From contig JAHIRF010000009.1 of the NCBI GenBank assembly GCA_018818785.1, positions 189,099 to 253,098 on the forward strand: 64,000 nt of DNA. Direction: 5' to 3'. The notes beneath the pieces are model-generated. The model was given only the letters and a program-made list of their open reading frames with translations, did no database searches and was not told where the DNA came from. This stretch comes from Thermoplasmatota archaeon (GTDB lineage Archaea; Thermoplasmatota; Thermoplasmata; UBA10834). Each line of letters begins with the position of its first letter. The first letter of the stretch is position 1. A program made the position numbers and the translations under genes. Shown in pieces: positions 14,292 to 64,000 of the stretch.

Positions 14292-14975
14292 ATGCGGGAC
14301 CAAGTGAGGGAGAAGATCGCAGGAGAAATCTGCCTCTCTGAGGAGCCTGGCAGAACGATACGCAAGTGGCGCGAACAATTCAATATTTCTCAGCAGGACC
14401 TATCCAAGCACCTAGGGGTTTCACCTTCCGTGATAAGCGATTACGAGGCCGGAAGAAGGAAATCGCCAGGGATTGCGACCATCAGAAAGATCGTCGACGC
14501 CTTCCTGGGGATCGACGAGAAGACTGGCGGGTCGATCCTCAAGCAGTACTCGCTCGCCGCTAAAACCGAATCGATAATCGCGATAAAGGAGTTCTCCGTC
14601 GAGGTCCTCGCATCGGAACTGGTCGACAAGTTGAAGGGCGAGAACCTCACGCCGGCCATATCCCTGAACAAGCACATCCACGGGTTCACTATCATCGATA
14701 GCATAAGAGCCATCACGACTCTCAGCTCGTTCGATTACCTCAAGATCTATGGCTGGAGCAGTCAGAGGGCGCTCGTGTTCACGGGCGTCAGGTTCGGCCG
14801 GTCACCGATGATCGCCATCAGGGCCCATCCGCTCAAGCCTGCGCTGGTCGTTTATCAGAAGCCGGAGCAGGTTGACGAGCTTGCGGTGAGGCTTGCGGAG
14901 CTGGAGGGCATTCCTCTCGTGAGGACGGAACTGCCAGCTAGTGAACTGGTCGAGATACTCCAATCGCTAGGATGA
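14292..14975 (+). CDS. HTH (XRE-type) transcriptional regulator of the mevalonate cluster
   Basis: 227 residues. Residues ~20-75 are a Cro/C1-type helix-turn-helix ('[29 protein letters not shown]'; the recognition helix holds the second half). A C-terminal domain of about 140 residues is of the type found in archaeal regulators next to HMG-CoA synthase. It is first of four genes; the next starts 16 bp on. Family context suggests it senses something in isoprenoid synthesis, but the ligand is unknown. The dyads at 14237-14271 in its promoter are plausible targets. The start is fixed by the TATA box 28 bp upstream. Confidence 0.85.
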
Positions 14976-14991: not shown

Positions 14992-16044
14992 ATGGAAGTA
15001 GGAATCGTGAGTTATGGAGCATACGTCCCACGCTACAGGATCAAGCCGGAAGAGATTGGTAGAGTTTGGGGCACAGATGGTATTGCGATGGGAAAGGGCC
15101 TGATGATATTCAGCAAATCGGTCCCTGGGCCGGATGAAGACACCATCACGATCTCCGTGGAAGCCGCCAGGAACATGATGAGACGTGTGGACGTCGACCC
15201 TAAGGACATAGGGGCCATCTATGTCGGTTCGGAATCCCATCCATACGCTGTGAAACCCTCAGGAACGATTGTCGCTGAAGCGATCGAAGCGTCCCCAGAG
15301 CTGACGGTGGCGGACTTTGAGTTCGCGTGCAAGGCGGGTACGGCCGCCATTCAGACCTGTATGGGTCTGGTTGGCTCAGGCATGATGAAGTACGGCGTGG
15401 CCATCGGTGCGGATACCTCTCAGGGAGCGCCCGGCGACGCGCTCGAGTACTCTGCATCCGCTGGCGGCGCGGCGCACATGATCGGAGCTGAAAAGATCAT
15501 CGCGAGGATAGATCACACATATTCTTACACGACCGATACGCCTGATTTCTGGAGGCGTGAGGGTCAGATGTACCCGAGCCATGGTGGAAGGTTCACAGGG
15601 GAGCCTGCTTACTTCAAGCATATAGTGAGCTGTGCTAGGGGCCTGATGAAGAAGGCTGGTACGACCCCGGACGACTATGCTCATGCCGTGTTCCACCAGC
15701 CGAACGGCAAGTTCCCCACAAGGGTGGCGAAGCAGATGGGCTTCACCGAGGCGCAAGGCAAACTCGGCCTGATTGTCCCTCATATCGGGAACACCTACTC
15801 TGGGGCGGTGCCGCTAGGATTGGCTGCTATCTTGGATGAGGCGAAGCCGGGAGACCGCATCTTCGCCATAGCATACGGCTCTGGCGCTGGCTCCGATGGT
15901 TTCGATATGACAGTCACTGACGAGATATCGACTTTCAAACGGGATCGCGCGCCCACGGTGAAGGAGCAGATCGCCAATCCGAAGTACCTCGATTACGCCA
16001 CCTATGCGAAATTCAGAGGCAAGATAACTCTCGGGAGGGGATGA
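14992..16044 (+). CDS. hydroxymethylglutaryl-CoA synthase
   Basis: 350 residues, typical archaeal HMGS length. It condenses acetyl-CoA and acetoacetyl-CoA to HMG-CoA, the committed step toward mevalonate and archaeal ether lipids. Visible: nucleophile Cys113 ('FACKAGTAA'), His235 ('FHQPNGKFP') and an acidic '[12 protein letters not shown]' loop, all matching the family, so the enzyme looks active. It overlaps the thiolase gene by the ATGA motif, indicating tight translational coupling. In archaea the three proteins HMGS, thiolase and DUF35 are known to form one complex that passes acetoacetyl-CoA directly; the same three genes lie here in that order. Confidence 0.95.
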
Positions 16045-17213
16045 ACATGAGAAGGGTCGCAGTCATCGGTGTTGGGGACACGAAGTTCGGGGAACTATGG
16101 GACGCTTCCTTCAGGGACATAGGTATACGGGCAGGTCTAGCCGCAGTCGAGGATGCGAAGATATCCGCGGAGATGATAGATGCGGTGTTCGTCGGAAACA
16201 TGTCTGCTGGCAGATTCATCGAGCAGGAGCACATAGGCGCGTTGATCGCAGACTATGCGGGACTTGCAAGAGATCATATCCCTGCTACCAGGGTGGAGGC
16301 AGCTGGAGCATCCGGTGGACTCGCCCTCAGGCAAGGCTTCATGGCGGTTGCGTCCGGGCTTCATGATATCGTCGTAGTCGGTGGTGCCGAGAAGATGATG
16401 GATGTCAGCGACATCGCATCCTCGATGATCCAATCCTCCGCATCGGACCAGGAATGGGAGACGGAGCTGGGTGCCACTTTCGCGAGCCTTCACGCCCTGA
16501 TAGCGAGAAGACACATGCATGAGTACGGCACGACCAGGGAGCAGCTCGCGGATGTCGCGGTGAAAAACCACAAGAACGGTTCGCTCAATCCGAAGGCTCA
16601 GTTCCAGAGGGAGATCAACAGGGATGTAGTCCTCAGGTCGCCGCTAGTGGCGGACCCGTTGCGCGTATTCGACTGCTCTCCCAGCTCAGATGGCGCGGCA
16701 GCGGTCGTACTATGTCCGTTGGACGATGCGAAGAAGTATGTGGAGACCCCGGTCGAGATCATAGGTTCGGGACAGGCGAGCGACACTCTAGCCCTCCATC
16801 ACAGGCGTGACATACTCACCATGGACGCCACGAGGATAGCCGCGAAGAAGGCGTTCAAGAGAGCAGGTCTTGAGCAGAAGGATGTCCAATTGGCAGAAGT
16901 CCATGACAACTTCACGATAAGCGAGATACTCGCGATAGAGGATCTCGGGTTCTTCAAGAAAGGCGAGGGTGGAAAGGCGACCGAGGATGGCAGGACCGCA
17001 CTCGATGGAGAGATCGCCATCAACACCTCAGGAGGTCTGAAGGCCAGGGGCGACCCGATTGGCGCCACGGGTCTTGCGCAGGCAGTCGAGGTCGTGACCC
17101 AGCTGAGAGGAGTGGCTGGGAAGCGACAGGTCAAGGATGCGTCGGTCGGTCTGACCCACAACGTCGGAGGGACTGGCGCGACTGTGATAGTACACATTTT
17201 CAGGAGGTCTTGA
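16041..17213 (+). CDS. thiolase-family protein of the HMGS complex, catalytic Cys and His replaced
   Basis: 390 residues, colinear with archaeal acetyl-CoA acetyltransferases (SCP2-thiolase-like). Known members use a Cys in a 'C-A/G-S-G' motif and a His in 'G-H-P-x-G-A-T-G'. Here the first motif reads E-A-A-G-A-S-G-G, with Gly89 (codon GGA, 16305-16307) at the Cys position. The second reads G-D-P-I-G-A-T-G, with Asp338 (codon GAC, 17052-17054) at the His position. A third motif is H-D-N-F-T instead of the frequent H-D-C-F. The frame is intact and the C-terminal '[10 protein letters not shown]' is present. By fold it is a thiolase; by residues it probably cannot do Claisen chemistry. A scaffolding role, with another thiolase supplying acetoacetyl-CoA, is inference. 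Confidence 0.85.
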
Positions 17214-17215
17214 GG

Positions 17216-17632
17216 ATGGCGACAGCACCCAGATTCTGGAGGCAGAACCCTAGCCGGTACAATCTGATCGGGATAAAGTGCAACAGCTGCGGCAAGAACT
17301 ACTTCCCGCCCAGGGCTATCTGTCCGGTCTGCCACAGGAAGAGCGTTGGCAAGATCGAGCCGTTGAAGTTCAAGGGCGAAGGTGCCATATTCTCGTTCTC
17401 CGAGGTGCACGAAGGGATCGATGAGAAGGCTACGCTGAAGCCGTACCTCGTGGCCATGGTGGAACTCGACGAGGGTCCGAAGATCACCGGCCAGGTGATC
17501 GACTGTGACGCCTGCGACCTCAAGATAGGGGCCAGGGTCCGCACCGTGCTCAGAAAGCTCAGTGAGGAAGGGTCCGCGGGCGTCATCCATTATGGATACA
17601 AGTTCGTGCCCGTGCGCGATAAGAAGGAATGA
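17216..17632 (+). CDS. DUF35 zinc-ribbon/OB-fold protein of the HMGS complex
   Basis: 138 residues from the ATG at 17216, chosen because AGGAGGT at 17202-17208 is 7 bp upstream; a TTG at 17210 is too close. The N-terminal rubredoxin-like ribbon has C-N-S-C and C-P-V-C. The OB-fold follows ('GEGAIFSFSEVHEG', 'PYLVAMVELDEGPKITGQV'). In archaea this protein bridges thiolase and HMG-CoA synthase and helps bind CoA. It begins 2 bp after the thiolase stop. If the thiolase here is inactive, the bridging role is the part of the complex still expected to work. Confidence 0.9.
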   Translation: MATAPRFWRQNPSRYNLIGIKCNSCGKNYFPPRAICPVCHRKSVGKIEPLKFKGEGAIFSFSEVHEGIDEKATLKPYLVAMVELDEGPKITGQVIDCDACDLKIGARVRTVLRKLSEEGSAGVIHYGYKFVPVRDKKE

Positions 17633-17692: not shown

Positions 17693-19246
17693 ATGATAAA
17701 AAACGCGAATGAGGGCACTGGCTCTGTGGTCATCGATGGTAACAGTCTTACCATCGAGAAAGTCGTGAGGGTAGCTAGAGGGTTCACTCCTGTTCAAATC
17801 GGGGAAGAATCCCGGAACAGGATGATCTCCAGCAGGAAAGCGCTCGAGAAACTCGTCGAGACGGGAGCGACGATATATGCCGTGAATACGGGCGTCGGGG
17901 ACCTGGTCAACGCCAGGATATCCAAGAAGGACCTGAAATCGCTCCAGCTCAATCTCCTCCGCAGTCATGCCTGTGGTGTGGGCGAGAGATACCCGGTCGA
18001 GGTCTCCCGTGCGATAATGTTGCTTCGGGCCAATGCGCTGTCCAAAGGTTTCTCAGGCATAAGGCCTGACCTGCCAGAGATGCTGTCCAAGATGCTGAAC
18101 GCCAAGGTGCATCCATTGATACCACGTCAAGGCTCGGTGGGAGCGAGCGGGGATCTCACGATACTCGCACACCTGGGACTGGTCATGGTTGGCGAGGGCG
18201 AGGCTGATGCCGGGAACGGCCCGGAACCTGGGATCGATGCTCTTGGCAGACGGGGTTTGGAGCCTATCTCTCTCGAGCCTAAAGAGGCGATATCCATAAT
18301 CAACGGGACGCAAGCGATGGGTGGCATCGGCGCGCTCGCCGTCAATGACGCATCCACTCTCGTCGACAATTCGCAGATAGCCGCTGCTATGTCCCTAGAG
18401 GCTCTCAAGGGCACATCGATGGCGTTCGATCCTCGTATATCCAAGGTGAGGCCTCATCCCGGCCAGGTGCGGGTCTCTGGGAACATGGTGTCGATGCTGC
18501 AAGGTAGCGAGATCATGCTGTCCCACAAGCATTGTTCGAAGGTCCAGGACGCGTACACGCTCAGATGCATCCCGCAGGTGATAGGGGCCAGTCTCGAAGC
18601 GATCTGGTATGCTGACGATGTGATAAGCGTGGAGCTGAATTCCGCTACTGACAACCCGTTGTTCTTCCCGGAGGACGGATCGGTCATCTCTGGCGGCAAC
18701 TTCCATGGGCAACCATTGGCCTTGGCCATGGATTTCCTGGGTCTTGCGGTGCATGAGCTGGGAAGCTATTCCGAGAGACGTGTGGCACGTCTGGTCGATC
18801 ACAAACTGAGCGGCCTTCCTCCATTCCTGACTAAGCACGGTGGGGTCAGCTCCGGCATGATGGTGCCGCAGTATGTCGCAGCATCCATTGTATCCGAGAA
18901 CAAAGTCCTGGTGCATCCGGCGTCCGCGAGCTCCATCCCTACCAGTGCCAACCAGGAGGACTTCAACAGCATGGGTACGATCGCTGCATGGAAGGCAAGG
19001 ACGATCGTGGAGAACGTCAGCAGGGTGGTCGCAATCGAGATGATTGCTGCTGCGCAGGCGCTCGATTTCATCTCCGCATCTCCCAGTGCACCCGTACAGG
19101 AGGTCCGGTCATTGCTCAGATCCAAGGTGTCCAGGCTGGACAAGGACCGATCACTATCGGAAGACATCGAATCTGTCGCCCGCATGATATTGGATGGTGT
19201 GTTCGTCGATACGGTCGAACACACATGCGGATTTCAGAGGGCATGA
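17693..19246 (+). CDS. hutH: histidine ammonia-lyase
   Basis: 517 residues. It removes ammonia from L-histidine to give urocanate. The MIO cofactor forms from A151-S152-G153 in 'GSVGASGDL'. The catalytic Tyr is Y62 ('IYAVNTGVGD'), and the Ser-His pair in 'LLRSHACGVGE' is that of histidine rather than phenylalanine or tyrosine lyases. It lies 60 bp after the DUF35 gene but is probably a separate transcript. The matching formimino-transfer genes are 8 kb away on the other strand; urocanase and imidazolonepropionase are not in the window. Confidence 0.9.
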   Translation: MIKNANEGTGSVVIDGNSLTIEKVVRVARGFTPVQIGEESRNRMISSRKALEKLVETGATIYAVNTGVGDLVNARISKKDLKSLQLNLLRSHACGVGERYPVEVSRAIMLLRANALSKGFSGIRPDLPEMLSKMLNAKVHPLIPRQGSVGASGDLTILAHLGLVMVGEGEADAGNGPEPGIDALGRRGLEPISLEPKEAISIINGTQAMGGIGALAVNDASTLVDNSQIAAAMSLEALKGTSMAFDPRISKVRPHPGQVRVSGNMVSMLQGSEIMLSHKHCSKVQDAYTLRCIPQVIGASLEAIWYADDVISVELNSATDNPLFFPEDGSVISGGNFHGQPLALAMDFLGLAVHELGSYSERRVARLVDHKLSGLPPFLTKHGGVSSGMMVPQYVAASIVSENKVLVHPASASSIPTSANQEDFNSMGTIAAWKARTIVENVSRVVAIEMIAAAQALDFISASPSAPVQEVRSLLRSKVSRLDKDRSLSEDIESVARMILDGVFVDTVEHTCGFQRA

Positions 19247-20711: not shown

Positions 20712-22061
20712 ATGACTTTGGCATATCTATCTGAGGAGACGGTCAAGGCAGTCATGAGGCTAGGCGCTGACGAATGCGATGTTATTGTCGCTCAGACCAA
20801 TTCCATATCCGTCGAGATCGAAAGGGGTTCCGTGAAGCAGGCGAGCTCGTCAATCGACCCTGGTGTTGGCATCCGCGCGATCAGCGGCGGCTCCTCTGGA
20901 TTCGCCTTCTGCACCGACCATGAACCAGCATCGATCAAGAAGACCGCCGAACTGGCAGTCTCCCTCGCAAAGTCTGGCACTGCAGACACCGACTTCAGAG
21001 GTCTGCCACACCCATCCAAACCAAAGACCATATCTGGGCTGTTCGACCCCAAGGTCGCGGATATGACGCCCGATGCAGGTGTAGAGATGATCTCGCGAGT
21101 CGCGGATGTGACCGGAGACGACAAGAGGATCACATCCGTCATGGCGGGTCTAGGGATGTCCGTTTGCCGAGTCTCCCTTGCGAATAGCCATGGGCTGGTG
21201 GCCGAACAGGAGCTGTCTTCGTTCGATGTATTCGCTGAGGCAGTGGCTCACTCAAATTCGACCATGTTCTCAGGGTTCGATGGTTCTTCTTCACGCCGTC
21301 TGGATCTCAGCCAGTTGGACAGCGCCGGCCTTAGTGCCAGAGAGCATGCGATAAACGGCCTCCGACAGACCAAGATCGAGACAGGTGATTACGCAATCGT
21401 GGTCGATCCGCTCGCTGCCGGAATGATACTGGCTGACGCGATTGGTGGAGGGACGAACGCCGAAGCTGTTCAGCGCAAACGGAGCTATCTCACGGGAAAG
21501 ATGGGTCAGATGATCGGGTCCGAATCTATCACGATAGTGGATGATCCACTGCTGCAATGGGCGGTGGGGAGCACATCGTTCGACGGAGAGGGTACAGCCG
21601 CGAGGCCGACGACTCTGGTTGATTCCGGTCGCCTATCCTCGTACCTATATGATTCGTATACTGCTGGAAAAGACTCGGTCGAGAGCACAGGCAATTCATC
21701 CCGAGGCGGTGCAGTGTGGAGTTACAGACACCCGCCATCGATATCCACATCCAACCTGGTTGTCAAGAATGGTAGCTCGAGCATGGACGAGATGATCAAG
21801 GAGAGCGACGGGGGCGTCTACCTGAGGGTCACCTTCGACCACCCGAACCTTGCCACAGGCGAGTTCTCTGGATTGATGATGGAGAGCTATGTCATAGAGG
21901 ATGGCGCGCTGGGGCCATCGATTCGGCAATCAACCGTCGGAATAGGTCTGATAGAACTGCTCTCGCGGATCGACATGATCGGCCGGGAGAGCAAGGACTA
22001 CTTCGGGGTAAGGACGCCGGCGTTCAGAATATCCAATGCCAGGGTTGCAGGTTCGGCCTAG
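20712..22061 (+). CDS. pmbA: TldE/PmbA, non-catalytic partner of TldD
   Basis: 449 residues from the ATG at 20712, with GGAGG at 20700-20704 seven bases upstream. The 33-codon upstream extension overlaps tldD and is not needed. It shares the TldD fold ('YAIVVDPLAAGMILADAIGGG', 'GEGTAARPTTLVDSG') but lacks HExxxH, as PmbA/TldE subunits do. Its stop overlaps the stop of the convergent giant coiled-coil gene by 4 bp. Confidence 0.92.
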   Translation: MTLAYLSEETVKAVMRLGADECDVIVAQTNSISVEIERGSVKQASSSIDPGVGIRAISGGSSGFAFCTDHEPASIKKTAELAVSLAKSGTADTDFRGLPHPSKPKTISGLFDPKVADMTPDAGVEMISRVADVTGDDKRITSVMAGLGMSVCRVSLANSHGLVAEQELSSFDVFAEAVAHSNSTMFSGFDGSSSRRLDLSQLDSAGLSAREHAINGLRQTKIETGDYAIVVDPLAAGMILADAIGGGTNAEAVQRKRSYLTGKMGQMIGSESITIVDDPLLQWAVGSTSFDGEGTAARPTTLVDSGRLSSYLYDSYTAGKDSVESTGNSSRGGAVWSYRHPPSISTSNLVVKNGSSSMDEMIKESDGGVYLRVTFDHPNLATGEFSGLMMESYVIEDGALGPSIRQSTVGIGLIELLSRIDMIGRESKDYFGVRTPAFRISNARVAGSA

Positions 22062-25000
22062 AATGAGAACTTCTGTGAACAGACGGGGCATTGTCCAGTT
22101 CGCTTGGCGCAGGTGAGATGCAGGCTGCTCCCGCATCTGCATGTGACGATCTCGAATCCTGACTTGACCCTGCCCTGACAATGAGCGCACTTGGTCGTTT
22201 GAGTTGCGTGGCCAACTGTGTATGGAGGACCGGCAGAGAAGACGCTCACCTTTCCATCTAACTCGAAGTTCAGGAGGCTACCGTCGAAGTGCCGCTTGCA
22301 GGTGATGTTCACCCTTATCGGCAACTCTCCTGACGCATGAGGGACTATCCTGGCCCTGACCAATATGTCTGTATCGGGGTTCAGGCTTCCGATCCTGGGG
22401 GCGTCCACAGCTTCGAACTGTCCCGATAACTGCATCGTGACCTCCTTTGCCAGGACATTACCGATGTTCTTGAGTGTGATGTCGACTTCCCCCTCAGCAT
22501 CCTCCTGAAGCCCGGACGAGTCTATAGTCCCAGTGATATCCGGGGAATGTGATTCTATGGTACTCTTCGCTGAATCGAGGGCTTCTGCGACGAACTCGAT
22601 TGCAGAATCGTAGTCCTTGTCCCTCTCCAAGTCCGCGAGTGCGAGCAATCTCGCCGATTCGCCTGTCGATGCTCCGATTCTCTTCAATATCTCTATGGCG
22701 CTTTCCGCGGCTATCGATATGTCTATGAATTTCTTGTGCGAGTCCTCGACTCCGAGGATCCTCTGGTCTGCTTCCATGAGGAGTTGGAACGCCTCCGAGG
22801 TGTTGTTCTCGCTCGTAACTTGCTGTGCCTGGTCCAGGAGTTCCTCGATCGAACGCACGGAGGCTCCTGAATCCCTCAAAGGCTGGAGTCTCTCGCGGAC
22901 GTCTGACACAAGGTTAGCGAGCTTCTTCTCGATGAGTCCTTCAGCAGTGGTCCTGCATGAGATCGCCTGCTGAAACGCGAAGTCCCACAATTTCTCTGAG
23001 AACGATGTTCTGGCGACTTCCATCAAATCCTCGCAAGACTTGACGTTGAGGCCCATCGACTTCGCCTTGAATATCAAATCGTTGTTCTCTTCCATTATGT
23101 TGTTTATTGAGCCCTCGAATAATTGCAGAGCCATTTCTGAGCATCTCGTCAAGGCTCCCATGCATCTCCTGAAATCGTGCGCGGCCAGATATCCCTGCGC
23201 TTCGGTGAGGATTCTTTCGCACGCACCTGTGTCGATGCCGACCTTCTTCAGTCGGTCGACCTGTTCTCTGACCGAGCTCAGTTCGATCCTCGAACTGTCC
23301 ATGTTCTCCCTGATCAGATGGATCTCGTCGCCGCTCTCGATCGACTTCGCTAGAGCGTCGACATACTTGCCCTCAGAGAGCAGCATCTCCGCCTCATTCA
23401 CAAGTTGCTCTATCTCGGGGGCGCTTATCCCGTCTTCGGCCGCCTCCAAAAGCTTCATGCGTGCCATTTCGACTGCCCTGGTGCTGATCTCCTTCTGCAG
23501 CTCAGCCTTCTCCATCTCGGCCTCGCAATTCATCGCAAGTTTCAGCGCATCCTGGAACCGGTCCTCGTTGAAAGCGTGGATTCCATCGGCGACACATCGT
23601 TCTGCCATCCCGACAGAGACGCCCTCGTTCGCAGCCTTTTCCACACGGTCCTTGAACTTCTCGAGGGTGTTCCAGATCGTGTTCCTAGTGACTTCGGTCG
23701 ACGATTCAGATGATTTCTTTGAGAGCTCGAGAGCAATCGCGTATTGATGACGGGTCAATGCCTCGACGGCCTGATCCAGGAGTTCCCTGGCCTGGCCTAC
23801 ATCCATGTCGAGTGTCTCGGCGTTCTTGAGGTTGCCTCGCGCAACCTTGATCTCGACCGCTGCCTTGGAGCTCAAGTTCTTTATCTGGTCAATGTCGTTC
23901 GTGGCCGAATCGATGCATCTGAGTGCCTCGGCATAATCTCCTGTCTTCCATAGGACGACCGCCTTCTCCGCGAGAGTCTCTGGATCCTTAGTATCCACTC
24001 CGACATTCTTGGCATCAGTCAGCAACCTCTGGAGTTCCTTGATCATCTCTGATACGCCATCTGCCGTCTTCTGGCGGACAATGTCTTCACACCGTTTCGC
24101 GACGGCGAGTGCTTGATCATATTCCTTCTTCTTCATCAGATCCTTGGCTTGCCCCAGCATCTCTCGGCTTTCAGACATGTCGATCTCGTATGACTGGGCG
24201 AGTTCGATGCTCTCCTTGGAGGTGAGTATGAACTTGGCGGCTAGATACATGGCCAGCTTCTTCTCGGCCTCCTCGGTCAGCGAATCAAGCAGCCTCTCTG
24301 ATTCGTCGAAATCGCTGTCCTGGAAGTATCTCTTCGCGAGTCCGAGTTCCTTGGCTTGATCGGTGACATCGGCCTTGCTCCTCTGCGCCTCCTCGACGAG
24401 GTCCTCGGCTCCTCGTATCTTCTCCTTTATTCCGTCATATCTCCTGATCTTATCCTCCAGGGACGACCTGGTCTCTGAAATCAGGGAATTGGCTCCATCA
24501 TAATCCTTCTCTTCGAACTTGGCACGAGCATCTTTTATTGCGGTTTTCGCTTCGTTGACGCTGATTCCTATCGACTTTGCCTCTTCGAGGAAGTCTTTGA
24601 TGCCCGAGAATTTTGCCTGCAGCAGTCTAGTGATCATCTCATCCGCATTCGAGATGACTCCCCTCGTGGTCGCAGAAGCGTCCTCGTACACTTTCTTCTC
24701 GATGGATCCCTTGGCCCTCGTGATGAGAATCTCCAGGTCCGAGGGGTCTCCTCCGAACTGTCTGACCTTGTTCATCTTCTCATCCGCAACCGCTATCAGT
24801 CTGTCACACACATCTTTCCCCACAGTCTCTATCCTCTGCTGTGCCTCTTTGAGGAGTTCGTATGATCTTTCGAATGATTGCTCCGATAGTCTGAGGCGTG
24901 AATCGGAGATTGTCTCTACGACATCCGCGACCGCCTCTCTGTCTGAGAAGCTCTTGACGAATTCGTCGATGTTGTGTAACCTGTCACTCAATACCCTCGT

Positions 25001-26569
25001 GATTGCGGCGCTGGCAGCTTCGATGCTCAAGTTGGAGAGTCTCACGCTCTCTGGGATTGCCTCGTTGGCCATGGAGGACAACGCCCTCTGGAGCAACCCC
25101 TCAGCCTCCGTGATATCCGCGCCCATCTGCTTTCCCAGCTTGACCGTCTTGTCCGTCTTATCGATCGTGTCCAGGGTCCTGTCGTAAGCCGCTTTCCTGG
25201 CCTCGGTCAATCCTCGCTTGGCGAGTTCCAATGTCTTTTCGAAGTCTCTTGACTCGAATGATCTCTTTGTTTCGGCGAGGACCTCTTTGACCGACAAGAT
25301 TTCCGAACCTATGTCCTCTGCGAATTTGATCTCCTTTGTCAGCTCGACCAATTCGTCTCTGGCGTTGGTGAATACCTCGAGAGCAGTGTCGATCTCCTTC
25401 TCACTCTGCTGCGCGTATTTCATCGCATCCTCGAATTTGCGCTGTCTCAGGTTGTCCCTGGCCGTGTTGAGGAGCGTGAATGGCTTGCTCATGTCCACGC
25501 CGATCTTTTTAGCGAGGACGAATCGGTCCTTGGCCTTGGCTATGACCTCGAGGACTGACTTGAACTGCATGTCCCGGACCTTTTCATTTGCCGAGGTCAA
25601 GGCGTTGAGCGCCTCGATGTACTTCTTGTCCTTCATCGCAATGTGAGCCTGATCGAGGATGTCCTGAGGGACTTCGACGTCTTCGCCCACACCCTTGAGC
25701 GTCTTGATGCCTTCCCTGACTTCTTTGATGATGTCCTGGAACTTGGCGCTTATAGCATTCTCGCCCTCGGACTCCGCCCTCTTGGCGTATGATAGTGAAT
25801 CTTTGAACCGCAGCGATCCTAAGGCGGTTTTCGATTTCTCAATGTGGCTGGTGACCCTGGACATGTCCGCCTGCAGTTCCTCCCCAGCGGTGACCAGCTC
25901 CTCGCCTCTCGCTATCGTCGCGTTGATCTGTGCCCTGATGTTATCTCCAGCTCCCTCAAGTGCCTCGCGGACGTTCGTCAATCCCTGTTCGTAATCCTGC
26001 TTCTCGAGAGCGCTCTTCCCCTGGGCGAGAAGATCTTCGAACAGACTGACATCGTCGCCCATCTCTTTGGATTGGATTATGATCTCCTGTGCCTGTGAGA
26101 GTAACTCTGAGAAATGCTCATGTAGCGACCTTTCAGCGGCATCATATGCGCTCTTGGCGCTCTTCATCGCGTTTTCAAGGTCGTCCTTCATAACGAACTT
26201 CTTGCTCTCCTCGAGCATCTCCAAAGCGCCCTTCGCTTCGGCTACTGGTATCTGGCCAGCGGTGACAAGCGATTCTGCTGAATCTGCCACCTCACCTATC
26301 CGTTTAATAAAAGCGGTCTTGGACTCCTCAGTTGCCTTCTGTATGTATCCGAGTGCTGATTCGTATTCCTTGGAATCCATCGCGGCATTGTACTGTGCCA
26401 GTACCTTGTTGGCTTCTGATAGATCTGTGTCGTTCTCCTGGCAGAGTTCTAAGAATGATTGGAGCTTCTCGAAATCCTTTTCAGCTCTCCCTCGATTTCG
26501 GGTCGCCTCCTTTGCTCGTTCCTCCAGTTGCTTTGCTAGCTGGAGGCTCTTGAGATAGTTACCTGCCAC
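22058..26569 (-). CDS. giant helical-repeat/coiled-coil protein with beta-sandwich and RING-like C-terminus
   Basis: 1503 residues. Residues 1 to ~1330 are a helical array of ~35-45-residue repeats of the form 'A-K-x-x-G-x-D-x-S-x-A-x-x-L-L-x-x-A-x-x-x-L-x-x-x-x-Y-x-x-A-L'. They are rich in Glu, Lys and Ala and predicted to form long coiled coils. A beta-sandwich-like domain follows (~1345-1450, 'GEVDITLKNIGNVLAKEVTMQL'). The end is a zinc module from residue 1461, C-x2-C-x11-C-x-C-x4-H-x2-C-x6-C-x2-C, similar to RING/treble-clef fingers. There is no signal peptide or membrane segment, so it is probably a cytosolic filament or scaffold. The family is not recognised. An AT-rich TATA candidate lies at about 26636-26646. 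Confidence 0.8.
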   Translation of the reverse strand: MAGNYLKSLQLAKQLEERAKEATRNRGRAEKDFEKLQSFLELCQENDTDLSEANKVLAQYNAAMDSKEYESALGYIQKATEESKTAFIKRIGEVADSAESLVTAGQIPVAEAKGALEMLEESKKFVMKDDLENAMKSAKSAYDAAERSLHEHFSELLSQAQEIIIQSKEMGDDVSLFEDLLAQGKSALEKQDYEQGLTNVREALEGAGDNIRAQINATIARGEELVTAGEELQADMSRVTSHIEKSKTALGSLRFKDSLSYAKRAESEGENAISAKFQDIIKEVREGIKTLKGVGEDVEVPQDILDQAHIAMKDKKYIEALNALTSANEKVRDMQFKSVLEVIAKAKDRFVLAKKIGVDMSKPFTLLNTARDNLRQRKFEDAMKYAQQSEKEIDTALEVFTNARDELVELTKEIKFAEDIGSEILSVKEVLAETKRSFESRDFEKTLELAKRGLTEARKAAYDRTLDTIDKTDKTVKLGKQMGADITEAEGLLQRALSSMANEAIPESVRLSNLSIEAASAAITRVLSDRLHNIDEFVKSFSDREAVADVVETISDSRLRLSEQSFERSYELLKEAQQRIETVGKDVCDRLIAVADEKMNKVRQFGGDPSDLEILITRAKGSIEKKVYEDASATTRGVISNADEMITRLLQAKFSGIKDFLEEAKSIGISVNEAKTAIKDARAKFEEKDYDGANSLISETRSSLEDKIRRYDGIKEKIRGAEDLVEEAQRSKADVTDQAKELGLAKRYFQDSDFDESERLLDSLTEEAEKKLAMYLAAKFILTSKESIELAQSYEIDMSESREMLGQAKDLMKKKEYDQALAVAKRCEDIVRQKTADGVSEMIKELQRLLTDAKNVGVDTKDPETLAEKAVVLWKTGDYAEALRCIDSATNDIDQIKNLSSKAAVEIKVARGNLKNAETLDMDVGQARELLDQAVEALTRHQYAIALELSKKSSESSTEVTRNTIWNTLEKFKDRVEKAANEGVSVGMAERCVADGIHAFNEDRFQDALKLAMNCEAEMEKAELQKEISTRAVEMARMKLLEAAEDGISAPEIEQLVNEAEMLLSEGKYVDALAKSIESGDEIHLIRENMDSSRIELSSVREQVDRLKKVGIDTGACERILTEAQGYLAAHDFRRCMGALTRCSEMALQLFEGSINNIMEENNDLIFKAKSMGLNVKSCEDLMEVARTSFSEKLWDFAFQQAISCRTTAEGLIEKKLANLVSDVRERLQPLRDSGASVRSIEELLDQAQQVTSENNTSEAFQLLMEADQRILGVEDSHKKFIDISIAAESAIEILKRIGASTGESARLLALADLERDKDYDSAIEFVAEALDSAKSTIESHSPDITGTIDSSGLQEDAEGEVDITLKNIGNVLAKEVTMQLSGQFEAVDAPRIGSLNPDTDILVRARIVPHASGELPIRVNITCKRHFDGSLLNFELDGKVSVFSAGPPYTVGHATQTTKCAHCQGRVKSGFEIVTCRCGSSLHLTCAKRTGQCPVCSQKFSF
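22061..22189 (-). other. RING-like zinc module of the giant coiled-coil protein
   Basis: This encodes the last 43 residues, from 'CAHCQGRV' to 'CPVCSQKF', with seven cysteines and one histidine able to bind two zincs in a cross-brace. Similar C-x-C-G-x3-H-x2-C / C-P-x-C patterns occur in archaeal proteins of unknown role. Whether it works as a ubiquitin-like ligase finger or only as a structural or binding module cannot be told. Confidence 0.55.
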
Positions 26570-26717: not shown

Positions 26718-27341
26718 TTAAAGGCTCTGAGGTCGGAGTCTCTTGAGGGCGCTCTCACGCATGTCCTCGGCGGCTCTCAGGAGTGACGAGACCTCGGCCT
26801 CCCTCCGTGATCTGTACTCGCCGTCCTCGCATGATGCCAGGTTGATCCGGACATTGGCTGCCGCGCCTCTCAGACCGGCTTCCGCGAGCTCTATGGCGAC
26901 CTCCACATCTGAGGACGCGCTCCTGATCCCTCTCTGGGCGACTATCTTCGATATCCTCAGGAGCTGGAGGCAGTTCCTAGCAGTTTCCATGGGTATGTCG
27001 GTGGCATTCCTGACGGCAGGATCGCGGGCCGCAAGGACTTCTTTCTCATCCGTCATCTCCCTCGTTCGTCTGAAGACGGCCGCCAGTTCAGAATATGCCT
27101 CTGAATCCTTGACAGAGAGATCCAAGAGCTTGTCTCTGAGGTGTTCCGCATTGGTCTTCTCCTCCAGCAGCGCTGGCCAGTGGTCCTCCAGCTTCCGACT
27201 CTTAAGACTGATCCCACAGACCATGACCAGCAGGGAGGCGCTCATGGATCCCGCCGCGGCGGATGCGGTGCCACCTCCTGGCGCCGGCCGATCCGAGGAT
27301 AGGTCGTTGCAGAACGCCCTCAGCTCTTCCAGAGTATTCAA
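26718..27341 (-). CDS. fchA: formimidoyltetrahydrofolate cyclodeaminase
   Basis: 207 residues, the normal size of the stand-alone enzyme (the C-terminal half of eukaryotic FTCD). It converts 5-formimino-THF to 5,10-methenyl-THF and ammonia. The N-terminal 'PAPGGGTASAAAGSMSASL' and helical body match the family. Its start overlaps the end of the formiminotransferase gene by 4 bp, so both steps are made together. The pair implies tetrahydrofolate as a one-carbon carrier in this archaeon. Confidence 0.9.
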   Translation of the reverse strand: MNTLEELRAFCNDLSSDRPAPGGGTASAAAGSMSASLLVMVCGISLKSRKLEDHWPALLEEKTNAEHLRDKLLDLSVKDSEAYSELAAVFRRTREMTDEKEVLAARDPAVRNATDIPMETARNCLQLLRISKIVAQRGIRSASSDVEVAIELAEAGLRGAAANVRINLASCEDGEYRSRREAEVSSLLRAAEDMRESALKRLRPQSL

Positions 27342-28237
27342 CCCCAGATCCTCCTTTCAAGAACCTGGTTGCTGGCGAAATTGCCCATCTTCAGGAACCT
27401 TGCGGCAAGGTCGCAGACGGCATCGAGCGGTATCAGGCCGATTATCTCACTCTCTTCCACCTCGACGCCATGCGCTTCCGCTTCCTTCTTGACTTCCATG
27501 AACACCTTCGATATCGGGGTGACAGTATAGTCTGTGAGGTTCATGGATACCTGCACCATCTTCTTCTCCTTGAGCATGAATCCGAGTGCCTTGACATGGG
27601 GTATGCCCCCGCTGCTGGCCCTGATCTTCTTCGCGATGGCCTTCGCGACTTCTATGTCCTCCGTCTTGAGGTTCACATTGAACGCTATGAGGGGCATGCG
27701 CGCCCCTACTGCCGTCGCACCTGCCGTCGGATGCACCTTTCTGGGGCCGTAATCTGGATACCTTGAATCGTCCGTGAGTATGGCCTCCTTCAAGCCCTCG
27801 AACTGTCCTCTCCGGACATTCTCCAGGTTGGTTCTCTCAGGGCGTTTGGCCGCGGCCTCGTACATGTATACCGGTATCTGCAGGTCCTTGCCGATGCGCG
27901 CGCCCACAATGTTCGCCACCTCAACGCAGTCCGCGATAGTGGCTCCTGAGATCGGGACGAACGGAAGCACATCCAATGCACCCATCCTCGGGTGCTCTCC
28001 CTTGTGCTTGGTGAGGTCTATATGCTCGGATGCGGCCCTAGCCGCCCTGAATGAGCTCTCCTGGACACTCTCCTTGTTGCCCGTGAATGTGACTACGCTC
28101 CTATTGTGGTCAGCGTCCATCTCCACATCGAGAACCTTGGTCCCTGGAACAGAACGGATCGAATGGACTATGTTGTCAATGACTCTCTTCCTGCGTCCTT
28201 CGCTGAAGTTAGGAACGCATTCTATGATGGATGCCAT
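27338..28237 (-). CDS. ftcD: glutamate formimidoyltransferase
   Basis: 299 residues from the ATG at 28237 ('MASIIECVPNFSEGRR'). A GTG at 28255 lies at or before the transcription start expected from the TATA box at 28273-28282, so the ATG is preferred. Visible family motifs: 'VPNFSEGR' at the N-terminus, 'DADHNRSVVTFTG' and 'HPRMGALDVLPFVPI'. It moves the formimino group of N-formimino-glutamate, the product of histidine breakdown, to THF, releasing glutamate. It works with the cyclodeaminase just downstream and, by pathway, with HutH at 17693. Confidence 0.92.
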   Translation of the reverse strand: MASIIECVPNFSEGRRKRVIDNIVHSIRSVPGTKVLDVEMDADHNRSVVTFTGNKESVQESSFRAARAASEHIDLTKHKGEHPRMGALDVLPFVPISGATIADCVEVANIVGARIGKDLQIPVYMYEAAAKRPERTNLENVRRGQFEGLKEAILTDDSRYPDYGPRKVHPTAGATAVGARMPLIAFNVNLKTEDIEVAKAIAKKIRASSGGIPHVKALGFMLKEKKMVQVSMNLTDYTVTPISKVFMEVKKEAEAHGVEVEESEIIGLIPLDAVCDLAARFLKMGNFASNQVLERRIWG

Positions 28238-28272
28238 GTCAATCGGACCGTTCACGTGAATTGACTAGGTAG

Positions 28273-41481: not shown

Positions 41482-44400
41482 TCACCAGCATCGGGAATAG
41501 CCGCAGGTCCTGCATACGACGCATCCCTCGACATATTCCACCATGCTCCCGCACTCAGGGCATTCAGGACAGACATCACCCTTGTCCACATGATTCTGCT
41601 TGCCCGTTTCAGGTTGTTGTGCCAAGGCAATCTGCTGGTCGACCTTCGACACCTCGAGGTCCTTGACGAACCTCTCAAGTGATTTAGCGACCGCATCGCT
41701 ACACGACAGCACCATCCCTCCTGGCTGCCATAGCGGGGAAGGGCACCTTATCCCCCTGAGCTGCTTTATTATCGACTCCGGGTCTATGCCCGAGCGGAGA
41801 GCAAGGGAGATCAACCTCCCTATCGCCTCCGATTGGGATGCGGTACAACCTCCAGATTTGCCCATCTGTGTGAATACCTCACATAATCCATTCTCGTCGA
41901 CATTGATCGTGATGTATAGGTGGCCACAGCCAGTCTCCATCCTCTGGGTGGTCCCCCGGGTCACAGATGGTCTGGCCCGCGGCACCTTCGATTGGTCATC
42001 GTCTCCGAGTCCATCGTTCTCGATCGTGTCCGTGGTCCCATCGCCGCCCACGCTCAGAACCTGGTCTTCTCTGCTGCCATACCTGTATACGGTGACGCCT
42101 TTGCATCCGAGCTCGTAGGCTCGCATATAGACGTTCTCGACGTCCTTGGGCGTTGCCTCGGCTGGGAAGTTGACTGTCTTGGATACTGCGTTGTCGGTGT
42201 GGTCCTGGAACGCGCCCTGCATCTTGATGTGCCATTCAGGGGAGATATCCAATGCGGTCACGAACACCCTCTGAACATCCTCGGGCACGCCACGCACGTC
42301 CTTCAGAGACCCTTTCGCGGCGATCTCTTTCATGAGATCTTCGGAGTAGAATCCTCTTCCCTGGGCCATCGCTTCGAATATCGGGTTCACTTCCGGCAGT
42401 ATGTCTCTGTCCATCACATTGCGCACATATGCCACGGCGAAGATGGGCTCGACACCGCTCGATGCTCCTGATATGATGCTTATCGTGCCCGTCGGAGCGA
42501 TGGTCGTCACCGTCGCGTTCCTGATCCTTTCATATCTCTGCTTCAATGTGCTCCCTGGGAAGTTCGGGAAGCTTCCCCTTTCGACGGCGAGGGCGACTGA
42601 AGCCTTGTGTCCTTCATCATTGATGAATTTCATTATCTTTCGCCCTAGATCGAGTGCCTCATTCGAGTCGTAGGGTATGCCCATTATCAGGAGCATGTCC
42701 GCGAATCCCATGACTCCCAGGCCGATCTTCCTGTTCCCTTTCGTCATATCTGCTATCTGTGGGAGTGGATACTTGTTCACATCTATGACATCGTCGAGGA
42801 ATCGGGCTGACCAGTGGACCAGGTCTCTGAGTTTCTCGAAATCAACCACCTGCTTTCCATCCTTGGTGGCGATGATCCTGGCAAGGTTGATCGACCCGAG
42901 ATTGCACGATTCGTAGGGCAGCAGTGGCTGTTCCCCGCACGGGTTCGTGCTCTCTATCTCCCCAATGTCAGGTGTGGGATTATCCCTGTTCATCCTGTCT
43001 ATGAACACGATGCCTGGTTCCCCATTCCTCCAGGCCATGTTGACTATCATATCGAATATCTTCCTCGCTCTGATCCTTGAAACGACCTCTTTTGTCCTAG
43101 GGTTCAGGAGATCGTAGTCGGTGTCCTTCACCACCGCATCCATGAACTTGTCTGTCAGGGCGACCGAGATGTTGAAGTTCGTGAGTTTGGTACTGTCTTT
43201 CTTGCTGGTTATGAACGAGAGTATGTCTGGGTGGTCTACGCGGAGAATCCCCATGTTGGCTCCGCGTCGGGTGCCTCCCTGCTTTATGGTCTCGGTAGCG
43301 GCATTGAACACTTCCATGAACGATATCGGGCCGCTGGAGACACCCGCGGTGCTCTTGACCGAGTCACTGGCGGGTCTCAACCTCGAGAAACTGAATCCTG
43401 TTCCTCCACCGCTGTTATGTGAGACGAACCCATTGGCAAGATATGAGTGTCTTCCTGGGACTGTCAGATCGACGACTCCCCTCTTCCCGGCAGGAACGAT
43501 GTCCTTCACCTTCACGAGGAAGTATCCTTGGTCGTCCGGCTCCTCGTGGCCGCAATTCATGCTGCCGAGCTCTTTCTCCATGCTTTCCGGATCAATCTCG
43601 TTGAGCCTCTTCGTCAAAACCATGGAATCGAAGCCAATCTTCTCCTTGAAAACCTCAAGGCCCGATTTGGTGCATATCGTCAATCGCTCTTTCTTCCCTA
43701 TCGTAGGGACGCCTATGTAGAACAGAATGACCTGGATCTGTGATGCGAGCTTATGTGATATGAGATCGACACTGATCACACCGTTGGGTGATATCCATCC
43801 ACGTTCGCTGAAAGTGCGGCTGAGGAACTCGCACATCGCAGCCTCATCTGCCTTGACTGCCTGTTCATCAACACCGAATTTTGCAAGCTGCAGGATGTCC
43901 TGTGGTACTTCGACCTCGATTCCACCGAGCCATCCACCCAGCTTCATAACTGCGTTGGTCCCTTCTGATATCTGGCCGATCTTTCGCCAGTGGAAATCCC
44001 CTTCGTCGGTTTTCACCATGATCTTATGAAGTGCAGTGCCTGTTATGCAGTAACCCTCTTCAGTTTCTAATGTGAATGTCTCCTGAACGCCATTGGAATG
44101 CTTGGATTCTACAAGGTCCATGCCCTCGTGCGTCTCAATCCAGGTGCCAGGCTCTATGGTTCCGAGCATCCTGCACCCTGCGTCTGTCATGACGAGCGTT
44201 TCGGGAACGAGGCATTTGTGGATTAAGGCGGTGTATTTGATCGCATCGAAGATCTCCTCCATCGAATCTCCTATCGGGAGGACGAAGCACGCAGATAATT
44301 GGCCGAGATCCCTTCCTGCGTTCATGAGTGTCGGGCTGTTGGGTACGAACTCTAGCCTGGCCATCATCTCGTAGAATTTGGATGCTATCTTGTCGACATC

Positions 44401-44643
44401 TGCATCGCTCTTGCCGTAATTCTTCTCTGCTGAGGCGATGGCTCTAGCAACTCTCTCGAACAATCCTCTGGGAGTCTCTGTTGTATTACCCTTGTCATCC
44501 TTGCGCAGATATCTCCTCTCGAGAACAGTTTTTGCATTGGAGGTTATCTGTGGTTCGAGATCCCATCCTGAGTCTGTCGACAGTCGTCTGTTCATGGACG
44601 ATGCGGCAGAATCTCCTTGTTGATGCGTGGGTGTACTTGACAT
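41482..44643 (-). CDS. nrdJ: adenosylcobalamin-dependent (class II) ribonucleotide reductase with intein
   Basis: 1053 residues from the ATG at 44643 (GAGAGG Shine-Dalgarno upstream; a GTG at 44667 is possible), about 786 after intein removal. It reduces nucleotides to deoxynucleotides using B12. Visible: 'EFVPNSPTLMNAGRDLGQLSACFVLP', 'TRRGANMGILRVDHPDI', 'NPCGEQPLLPYESCNLGSINLARI', 'TIAPTGTISIISGASSGVEPIF', then a TSCPD domain ('GCGHLYITINVDENG') and a C-terminal Cys pair region ('CPECPECGSMVEYVEGCVVCRTCGYSRCW') that shuttles electrons. The intein splits K from S-G-G-G-T-G-F. Being B12-dependent, it works with or without oxygen. Confidence 0.95.
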   Translation of the reverse strand: MSSTPTHQQGDSAASSMNRRLSTDSGWDLEPQITSNAKTVLERRYLRKDDKGNTTETPRGLFERVARAIASAEKNYGKSDADVDKIASKFYEMMARLEFVPNSPTLMNAGRDLGQLSACFVLPIGDSMEEIFDAIKYTALIHKCLVPETLVMTDAGCRMLGTIEPGTWIETHEGMDLVESKHSNGVQETFTLETEEGYCITGTALHKIMVKTDEGDFHWRKIGQISEGTNAVMKLGGWLGGIEVEVPQDILQLAKFGVDEQAVKADEAAMCEFLSRTFSERGWISPNGVISVDLISHKLASQIQVILFYIGVPTIGKKERLTICTKSGLEVFKEKIGFDSMVLTKRLNEIDPESMEKELGSMNCGHEEPDDQGYFLVKVKDIVPAGKRGVVDLTVPGRHSYLANGFVSHNSGGGTGFSFSRLRPASDSVKSTAGVSSGPISFMEVFNAATETIKQGGTRRGANMGILRVDHPDILSFITSKKDSTKLTNFNISVALTDKFMDAVVKDTDYDLLNPRTKEVVSRIRARKIFDMIVNMAWRNGEPGIVFIDRMNRDNPTPDIGEIESTNPCGEQPLLPYESCNLGSINLARIIATKDGKQVVDFEKLRDLVHWSARFLDDVIDVNKYPLPQIADMTKGNRKIGLGVMGFADMLLIMGIPYDSNEALDLGRKIMKFINDEGHKASVALAVERGSFPNFPGSTLKQRYERIRNATVTTIAPTGTISIISGASSGVEPIFAVAYVRNVMDRDILPEVNPIFEAMAQGRGFYSEDLMKEIAAKGSLKDVRGVPEDVQRVFVTALDISPEWHIKMQGAFQDHTDNAVSKTVNFPAEATPKDVENVYMRAYELGCKGVTVYRYGSREDQVLSVGGDGTTDTIENDGLGDDDQSKVPRARPSVTRGTTQRMETGCGHLYITINVDENGLCEVFTQMGKSGGCTASQSEAIGRLISLALRSGIDPESIIKQLRGIRCPSPLWQPGGMVLSCSDAVAKSLERFVKDLEVSKVDQQIALAQQPETGKQNHVDKGDVCPECPECGSMVEYVEGCVVCRTCGYSRCW
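43414..44214 (-). other. intein in nrdJ, 267 residues, endonuclease decayed
   Basis: Starts with Cys1 ('CLVPETLVMTDAG') and ends 'ANGFVSHN', followed by Ser+1 of the host. Block B has T60-x-x-H63 ('GTALH'), and block F is 'DLTVPGRHSYLANGF', so all splicing residues are present. The middle (about 43612-43827) resembles only the second half of a LAGLIDADG endonuclease: 'FLSRTFSERGWISPNG' stands where 'FLxGLFxADGxVxxNG' is expected, with the catalytic Asp gone, then 'LASQIQVILFYIGVPT' and 'VFKEKIGF'. It should splice but not home. Confidence 0.88.
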
Positions 44644-44718
44644 CCGGTCCCTCTCTTGAATTACCACTCTCTGTCTGCTGTGGAATGCACCGCTTGATAG
44701 CCTTGCCCCTCACTATAC

Positions 44719-62126: not shown

Positions 62127-62948
62127 ATGATGGCTGAGGGGACAAAGGACATCTTTCTAAGCTGTTTCAAATGCGGAAGGATCGTTAGGTCCAGAGACGG
62201 CGAGTGCCCGCGATGCGGGCTCAAGTTCGGACCTGGTACCCTCTTCGAATGCCCGTTCTGCTCTGGCCTGATTTGGCGCAATGCCACTCAGTGTTCCGCT
62301 TGCGGGATTGACCTGACCGAATTCTCGGAGAGTGTGTTGAGGACCAGCTCAGGATTCGACATGGATTCGTTCGTTGACAATATCATCAGCACAGAGCTTG
62401 AGCAGCTCAAATCGACGATTCGTCGAGTGGCGTGTCCGGGCTGTGGTCTGATGATCAGGGGGGATGAAGAAAAATGTCCGCGATGCGATCTGCCGTTGGA
62501 GGAAGCAAAGGTAGATTGTCCCGTGTGCGGTGAGAAGATATCCATATCTGCGAAATCATGCTCGGGCTGTCAGGCAGTCTTCGAGGAGCTTCCAGAAATG
62601 AAGCCCGTACTTGAGACACTATCGGAGGAACTTCCAGCCGTCGAGGCGCAATCTGCGCTGGATGCGCTGCTGGTGGAAGAGCCGCCACCTGCTATTGTGC
62701 CTGCAAAACCCCGATCAAGGGTCAGGACGACCAAGAAGATACGGAAGATTGTCAAACCGGTCAAGAAACCCGTACCAAAGCGCGCGAAGCCGAAGAAGAA
62801 ACCCGGACCGAAGAGGGTTGCATCGAAGCCGATGAAAAAATCATCAAAGAAGTCCGTGAAGAAGAAGGCACCTGCGAAGAATGTCTCCAAGAAACCAGTG
62901 AAGAAGAAATCCGCAAAGAAGAAACCGACGAAATCGAAGAGAAGATGA
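62127..62948 (+). CDS. zinc-ribbon protein with lysine-rich histone-H1-like tail
   Basis: 273 residues from the ATG at 62127, which is 26 bp after the TATA-like GATTAAATAA (62096-62105), so probably leaderless; a GTG at 62121 is possible. Four C-x2-C-type zinc knuckle groups occur in residues ~12-65 and ~100-155 ('CFKCGRI', 'CPRCGLKF', 'CPFCSGL', 'CPGCGLM', 'CPVCGEK'). The last ~80 residues are almost all Lys, Pro, Arg, Ser and Ala ('KKKPGPKRVASKPMKKSSKK'), like a histone H1 tail and suited to bind DNA or RNA. Function unknown. It lies 66 bp after the large surface protein gene. Confidence 0.8.
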   Translation: MMAEGTKDIFLSCFKCGRIVRSRDGECPRCGLKFGPGTLFECPFCSGLIWRNATQCSACGIDLTEFSESVLRTSSGFDMDSFVDNIISTELEQLKSTIRRVACPGCGLMIRGDEEKCPRCDLPLEEAKVDCPVCGEKISISAKSCSGCQAVFEELPEMKPVLETLSEELPAVEAQSALDALLVEEPPPAIVPAKPRSRVRTTKKIRKIVKPVKKPVPKRAKPKKKPGPKRVASKPMKKSSKKSVKKKAPAKNVSKKPVKKKSAKKKPTKSKRR

Positions 62949-62995
62949 AGTTATCGGTTCTTCCCTGAATCAGATCATAGGCTGTCTGGGAACGG

Positions 62996-63004
62996 ATTAA
63001 ATAT
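62996..63004 (+). promoter_or_regulatory. TATA box of the third zinc-ribbon gene
   Basis: ATTAAATAT is centred 26 bp before the ATG at 63026, so the mRNA is probably leaderless. This gives the gene its own promoter despite the tandem arrangement. Confidence 0.65.
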
Positions 63005-63025
63005 CTGCAGTCTGATGATGTATCG

Positions 63026-63391
63026 ATGACCGAGAACCCCGCGCCCGTGTTCATTCTGGCATGCATCGCATGTGGAAAGACGGTATCTGGGGTCGAGAAG
63101 AGTTGTCCGAGGTGCGGCGCATCTTTTGATGAAGTCCGGTTCGAATGCCCGTTCTGCGGAGAATTGGTATTGCTGGACAGCTCAAAATGCGGGGCTTGTG
63201 GAACCGAGTTCTCTGTGTTTGCGGAATCAGTGGACGAGAATTCTTCCGTCGTTCTAGATGGTCCCGAGAATGATGTCTCGGAGGCACAGGGACCCGACAT
63301 CATGGAATACGAATGCCCTGCGTGTGGGAAACCTGTATCCGCGAACGATAATGAATGCCCTAACTGTGGGGCGAAATTCTCCGAAGGATAA
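63026..63391 (+). CDS. small multi-zinc-ribbon protein
   Basis: 121 residues. Three double-knuckle ribbons: 'CIACGKTV...CPRCGASF' (~13-33), 'CPFCGEL...CGACGTEF' (~41-60) and 'CPACGKP...CPNCGAKF' (~97-118), separated by an acidic linker. The middle pair closely resembles the second ribbon of the preceding gene, suggesting duplication within the cluster. No other domain; probably an adaptor. The ATG is fixed by the TATA box 26 bp upstream. Confidence 0.78.
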   Translation: MTENPAPVFILACIACGKTVSGVEKSCPRCGASFDEVRFECPFCGELVLLDSSKCGACGTEFSVFAESVDENSSVVLDGPENDVSEAQGPDIMEYECPACGKPVSANDNECPNCGAKFSEG

Positions 63392-63404
63392 TGGGCGAGA
63401 TTGG

Positions 63405-63479
63405 TGGGGCCGGGACCGGGAATTGAACCCGGGTCAAGGGATCCACAGTCCCCAAGGATACCATTACCCCACCCCGGCC
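63405..63479 (-). tRNA. tRNA-His(GUG) with encoded G-1 and CCA
   Basis: Minus strand. Acceptor GCCGGGG/TCCCGGC, anticodon stem GGGGA/TCCCT with loop CTGTGGA (anticodon GUG), T arm CCGGG-TTCAATT-CCCGG. The extra 5' G (position -1, needed by HisRS) is genomically encoded opposite discriminator C73, and CCA is encoded at 63405-63407, unlike the other two tRNAs here. No intron. Confidence 0.93.
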
Positions 63480-63628
63480 ATATTTCGCCTCCATGATATT
63501 TCCATACATAAAGCTTGTCACAGTGAGGTTCTGTATAGTTATCGGGTGGTGTTGTTGATGGTGCCTTTTCCGATGCCACACATATCTCGCCGATCGCATG
63601 TATAATATGCATGTAGTCATGGAGGTGA

Positions 63629-64000
63629 TATGCCCATGGCCAGATGCTTTCTTCGATGCTCCACAGGGCGGCGGTCGTGCTCGAGGACCTGAATGGGATA
63701 ACCGGGCTGAAGCGCGGCAAGTCGCTCAACAGACAGTTGAGTTCGTGGCCTCGGAGGAAGCTGCATAGCATCATCGAATACAAGGCAGCCTGGAAAGGTG
63801 TGCCAGTCATCAAAGTCGACCCATACAACAGCAGCAGGAGGTGCCCGATATGTGGGAGGATAAAACATTCCCGAATGGGCGCCGAGTTCGAGTGTGAGAG
63901 CGGTTGGCGTGCGGACAGGCATGTCAAAGCCGGCATAAACCTGCTGCAGACAGCCTTCCCAGAAGGGATGGCAGGGGGCTTACGGTTCAGCCCCGGCGCG
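63629..64000 (+). pseudogene. TnpB (IS605 OrfB-like) C-terminal remnant, runs off window
   Basis: Frame opens after a stop at 63626 with no good start and continues to the edge. 'AVVLEDLNGITG' matches the RuvC-II Glu motif, 'SLNRQLSSWPRRKLHSIIEYKA' and 'VDPYNSSRRCPICGR' match the region before and at the zinc finger, and 'WRADRHVKAGINLL' carries the RuvC-III Asp. The N-terminal half with RuvC-I is missing. The second zinc pair reads C-E-S-G-W where C-x-x-C-G is usual, so one Cys is lost. It lies 149 bp from tRNA-His. A transposon relic rather than an active nuclease. Confidence 0.8.

Follow-up and report, generated by a model that had tools for sequence, protein, structure and literature searches.

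A widespread variant of the archaeal HMG-CoA synthase complex with a thiolase subunit predicted to be catalytically dead

In the 64,000-nucleotide stretch of Thermoplasmatota DNA analysed here (the window), a thiolase that has lost its catalytic residues is encoded between an intact HMG-CoA synthase (HMGS) and a DUF35 protein, and thiolases of the same kind are found in most genomes of the class and in much of the phylum. We take this to be a real and widespread variant of a known complex, in which HMGS would have a catalytically dead thiolase as its partner. The variant is undescribed as far as the open literature goes: no inactive HMGS-operon thiolase from Thermoplasmata or Methanomassiliicoccales was found there, which is weak evidence as it covers open papers only. 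Archaeal lipid synthesis is described as opening with a channelling complex that carries out its first committed steps, the thiolase feeding HMGS. Should this thiolase be inactive in the greater part of the phylum, including the Methanomassiliicoccales methanogens, the channelling model would fail there; the annotations 'acetyl-CoA acetyltransferase' and 'thiolase domain-containing protein' would be misleading, and the gene to which metabolic models assign this step would be the wrong one. The clade would also offer an extensive natural experiment on the reasons for which multi-enzyme complexes retain dead subunits.

The three genes (trio A) are adjacent on the forward strand, as in the archaeal HMGS/thiolase/DUF35 complex, downstream of a gene for a helix-turn-helix regulator (14292..14975, forward strand; Pfam HTH_3, 2.5e-13). 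The HMGS gene (14992..16044) scores 578 bits against TIGR00748 (cut-off 353) and 510 bits against chain I of 6esq. It ends in a four-base overlap (ATGA) with the start of the SCP2-type thiolase gene (16041..17213), at whose stop codon begins the DUF35 gene (17210..17632, with a TTG start at 17210 or an ATG start at 17216), which encodes a zinc ribbon and an OB fold (PF12172 and PF01796 matches). The original prediction had described an intact thiolase gene followed by DUF35 and coupled to an HMGS that seemed active because Cys113 is kept. This description holds: the thiolase frame runs uninterrupted over 390 codons, and alignment identifies in HMGS not only Cys113 (codon 15328..15330) but also the catalytic Glu81 and His235, all three being kept in the orthologues, so that HMGS is predicted to be active. 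Histidine ammonia-lyase and formiminotransferase/cyclodeaminase genes (17693-19246 and 26718-28255) place histidine degradation near the trio. Elsewhere in the window, two reverse-strand open reading frames, 22058-26569 (1503 aa) and 62761-63936 (391 aa), have no Pfam match, and the large chain of ribonucleotide reductase (41482-44667, reverse strand) carries a probable intein (PF14890, residues 195-418, 33.1 bits, just under the cut-off).

By sequence family and fold, the window thiolase is an archaeal SCP2-type acetoacetyl-CoA thiolase: it scores 573 bits against PRK06064 (cut-off 420), and its top PDB match in a phmmer search is 6esq, the thiolase/HMGS complex of M. thermolithotrophicus (372 bits). 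Against the curated equivalog NF053570 it reaches 585, under the cut-off of 600. None of the three residues expected of an active thiolase is present. Gly89 (GGA, 16305..16307), in the context VEAAGASGG, lies opposite the nucleophile Cys85 of the CxSG motif, and Asp338 (GAC, 17052..17054), in the context GDPIGATG, lies opposite His336 of the GHP motif. Both replacements had been proposed from the sequence, and the alignment with 6esq confirms them; it adds a third that had been missed, the HDCF motif reading HDNF at residues 288-291, with Asn290 (16908..16910) opposite the acid/base Cys286 and His288 kept. By residue content only, the protein would therefore be unable to produce acetoacetyl-CoA and channel it to HMGS. 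Within the window's family, all full-length orthologues, from 16 other genomes, have Gly and Asp at these positions, and both sister-family genomes (2/2) have the Gly; the closest named relative shares 87% thiolase identity with the window.

The loss of the catalytic residues has relaxed neither the selection on the gene nor, in the model, the fold. Indeed, dN/dS calculated by the Nei-Gojobori method on seven genomes of one genus is 0.066 for the dead thiolase, 0.062 for HMGS and 0.19 for DUF35, values that are rough as dS exceeds 1 for most genes. The thiolase gene is under strong purifying selection, equal to that on its HMGS partner. The AlphaFold2 model of the window thiolase (pLDDT 91.5, pTM 0.93, with the lowest confidence at residues 51-70 and 121-150) superimposes on 6esq_A with a Z score of 64.8 and an rmsd of 1.1 A over 383 residues, at 48% identity over the model, showing that the predicted fold is kept despite the residue losses.

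To count the losses, the HMGS-operon thiolase was read from 148 genomes of the class, and paralogous thiolases outside HMGS operons (L118-L136, L302, L303, L307, L312, L444-L447, L450-L452) were excluded. The nucleophile is missing in 138 of the 148, its position being occupied by G in 114, S in 12, D in 4, T in 4, E in 2, A in 1 and N in 1; the Cys-bearing genomes of the class belong only to families f5 (1 genome), f11 (2) and f14 (7). Elsewhere in the phylum, 30 genomes of other classes lack the Cys and 31 have it. The loss, which the original prediction placed 'in this lineage', is thus present there but is not restricted to it. Among 80 named genomes, Methanomassiliicoccales, Methanomassiliicoccus and Saliniplasma are Cys-less and three named Thermoplasmata (L164, L182, L183) have the Cys, while the Cys, HDCF and GHP are all kept in the outgroups Methanoregula, Methanolinea, Methanocellales, Methanothrix, Methanospirillum and Archaeoglobi. 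Beside the Cys-less thiolases, the Glu, Cys and His of HMGS are retained in essentially every complete HMGS read, a survey that covers the loci at which the operon was read together with the thiolase gene, some of them holding a partial HMGS gene.

Across the clade the three catalytic sites show about 30 residue combinations. Since so many different residues occur at the nucleophile position, it is not bound to a single chemistry. Within subclades the replacing residues are conserved, the Gly/Asn/Asp triad being constant in families f1, f2, f20, f29 and f30, which could reflect a specific role. In a tree of 122 thiolases, built with the catalytic columns removed, the Cys state changes at least five times: a single large clade (support 83) lacks the Cys, as does a group of f18 and f31, and the Cys-less f26 lies beside the Cys-bearing f14. 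Of 123 columns fixed in the Cys-bearing relatives, 65 stay fixed in the Cys-less ones; the strongest changes include C85, H336, A84, V338 and F287. Three individual observations belong here. A Cys two residues past the lost nucleophile (GACG) is clade-conserved at L067, L068, L070, L071 and L074 (families f19, f23, f24 and f27). The operon thiolase at L394 (genome G306, f41) has both Cys residues and GNP in place of GHP, in a genome with a classical thiolase, and is possibly a half-dead intermediate, to judge from its sequence. Finally, three f20 genomes that are 94-99% complete (G090, G191, G219) give no operon-thiolase match and have a classical thiolase, which counts against the structural reading given below.

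The original prediction had suggested looking for a second, canonical thiolase. The window's genome holds two others, both with full catalytic sets: thiolase B, described below, and P0002 (G000:C12:81037-82212, minus strand), a classical acetyl-CoA C-acetyltransferase (TIGR01930; compare Clostridium ThlA, 4N44) with VCGSG, HNEAF, GHPIG and CLGGG. P0002 lies outside the operon, belongs to a different thiolase subfamily (23% identity in the best alignment with a trio thiolase) and probably supplies the organism's acetoacetyl-CoA. Its dN/dS is 0.087, determined as above. Genes of this type are present in 229 of 250 class genomes. In the class, a classical thiolase accompanies 128 Cys-less operon thiolases and is missing beside 10; for the Cys-bearing ones the figures are 1 and 9. 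In the other classes they are 28 and 2 (Cys-less) and 12 and 19 (Cys-bearing). Taken together, 156/168 Cys-less and 13/41 Cys-bearing genomes have the classical enzyme, as do 97/100 of the Cys-less genomes that are at least 90% complete; it was found in 0/27 of one set of Cys-bearing genomes (24 of them outside Thermoplasmata) and in 0/7 f14 genomes. Because genomes with a dead subunit nearly always carry it, the separate classical thiolase is the most likely source of acetoacetyl-CoA, as far as gene content can indicate.

Strict exclusion between a Cys-bearing subunit and a classical thiolase had been predicted beforehand for the other classes; its Cys-less half held and its Cys-bearing half failed, the Cys being kept alongside a classical thiolase in genomes of f44, f41, f48, f50 and f38. 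Given the total of 13 such genomes among 41 Cys-bearing ones, the relation is one-way: where the subunit is dead, a classical thiolase accompanies it as a rule, but possession of a classical thiolase does not entail the loss. A gain followed later by a loss would produce this very pattern, and f44, G029 and G315, whose two thiolases both show complete catalytic residues in the parts read, look like living intermediates. The association is not proven statistically, as the changes in the tree, at least five in number, include only two well-supported independent pairs. The classical gene adjoins TiaS, and usually also an M20 hydrolase, at 42 of 67 loci (f1, f6, f20, f29, f30), a fixed place which marks it as long established. 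Within f7 the gene stands with those for enoyl-CoA hydratase, 3-hydroxyacyl-CoA dehydrogenase, ETF and acyl-CoA dehydrogenase, and may be catabolic there; a linkage to the f7 mevalonate operon, about 11 kb away, was rejected since the gene sits inside this beta-oxidation cluster. In two drafts that are 96% complete (G175, G183) the dead thiolase is the sole PF00108 protein, which may reflect assembly gaps or another source of acetoacetyl-CoA.

We consider it probable that the thiolase is a pseudoenzyme retained as a structural subunit of the HMGS complex. An ancestor would have acquired, or would have possessed beforehand, a classical bacterial-type acetyl-CoA C-acetyltransferase, which allowed acetoacetyl-CoA to be produced outside the complex, and the complex-bound thiolase would then have lost its chemistry. 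The protein itself would not have been dispensable, because in the solved complex the CoA site is formed by residues of thiolase, HMGS and DUF35 together. CoA is bound there at the interface of all three proteins (PMC6392133, PMC12329534, PMC6996347), the acetoacetyl chain moves between the active sites without release (PMC6392133, PMC12329534) and DUF35 has a scaffolding role (PMC6392133, PMC12329534, PMC6996347). HMGS would need the three-protein interface for its assembly or for CoA binding, the dead thiolase being kept for that purpose, and acetoacetyl-CoA from the separate thiolase would enter HMGS from solution via the old shared site. Thiolase-to-HMGS channelling would thus have been abandoned and the channelling architecture kept. 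The suggestion that the subunit is a scaffold, with acetoacetyl-CoA made elsewhere, had been part of the original prediction; the class-wide loss, the purifying selection and the near-constant presence of a classical thiolase support it, and from them we infer the scaffold role itself.

Trio A can be compared with several characterized systems. The archaeal complex of Vogeli et al. 2018, as described in PMC6392133 and PMC12329534, has the same three genes, the same fold and an intact HMGS site; trio A differs from it in the C to G, C to N and H to D changes of the thiolase and in being accompanied by a classical thiolase encoded elsewhere. A precedent for the retention of a dead subunit is the PhlACB acyltransferase: in this enzyme of Pseudomonas (5M3K), likewise built of thiolase, HMGS-like and DUF35 subunits, one catalytic subunit is dead yet needed: PhlA, the HMGS-like subunit, lacks Cys and Glu and is required for a functional complex (PMC6392133). 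There, however, the thiolase PhlC is live, so that trio A is the reverse. A further archaeal relative, the thiolase-like protein ST0096 of Sulfolobus tokodaii (4YZO; 42% identity), has Ser at the Cys position of CASG but differs in keeping the His of GHP.

The residue losses could also have been read as a sequencing or alignment error. This is refuted, practically beyond doubt, by the recurrence of these residues in independently assembled genomes of the family, by the invariant neighbours that anchor the alignment and by the 1.1 A superposition on 6esq; a random error had already been judged unlikely from the two replacements first seen. It is also highly improbable that the gene is decaying or is selfishly retained through translational coupling: the four-base overlap with HMGS and the DUF35 start at the thiolase stop codon would suit this idea, but it is already contradicted by a dN/dS equal to that of HMGS, by the lack of frame breaks in full-length orthologues and by its retention in about 40 families spread over the phylum. 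A working thiolase with another nucleophile, either Ser91 or a displaced Cys, is very unlikely. The GACG families do offer a Cys two residues on, but the window thiolase has Ser91 there, just as active thiolases do, and it lacks the acid/base Cys and the GHP His as well.

New chemistry on CoA esters, such as retro-aldol cleavage, decarboxylation or hydrolysis, has precedents. The steroid aldolases Ltp2-ChsH2 and Sal-Shy (6OK1, 9MYR) and the trypanosomal SLP (5AB4-7) share the thiolase fold and lack the nucleophilic Cys, which is Gly in Sal, and the first two have a DUF35 partner like that of the window trio (PMC12329534); the conservation of the Gly/Asn/Asp triad in five families and the retention of His288 in most could be taken in the same sense. 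These proteins are nevertheless active aldolases without an HMGS partner, and they depart from the window thiolase in the Tyr of their YDxF/Y-type motif (YDHF/YDCY), which is His in HDNF. The gene, moreover, lies in the HMGS operon in every family whose flanks were read. The original prediction had left room for another chemistry; the variety of residues that fill the lost sites across the clade speaks against it, and we regard it as unlikely.

One more reading concerns a second trio. At L035:6292-8924 (G000:C9), the window's genome encodes thiolase B, an HMGS-like protein and DUF35 (trio B), and the same trio was seen at loci L026-L034 and L037-L042, being present in most genomes of the family. 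Thiolase B keeps CASG, HDCF and GHP, whereas in 15 of 15 readable copies of the HMGS-like protein Glu is replaced by Thr, Cys by Thr or Ser, and His by Gln; trio B thereby fits the PhlACB pattern. Its dN/dS values, subject to the same roughness, are 0.059 (thiolase B) and 0.096 (HMGS-like B). Trios A and B are mirror images, and they occur together in 14 of the 16 other family genomes having a full-length trio A thiolase. It is conceivable, albeit improbable, that the window's family builds one hetero-oligomer that includes the dead thiolase of A and the dead HMGS-like protein of B, so that the live enzymes, thiolase B and HMGS A, channel together. The two trios occupy separate loci, however, and are only 29% (HMGS), 48% (thiolase) and 38% (DUF35) identical, and no trio B was seen in most Cys-less genomes outside the family. 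A mixed complex cannot account for the class-wide loss. More broadly, the reciprocal losses might mean that the two trios assemble together, or that they are complementary specialised forms of a single ancestral channelling machine, the dead subunits serving regulation or CoA binding; to this idea we give a rather small chance. On the 3' side of trio B in the window's genome lie a pair of CoA-transferase subunit genes and a class-III aminotransferase gene, with a divergent lysine 2,3-aminomutase gene; these neighbours suggest a catabolic acyl-CoA role for trio B, which seems likelier than a mixed complex with trio A.
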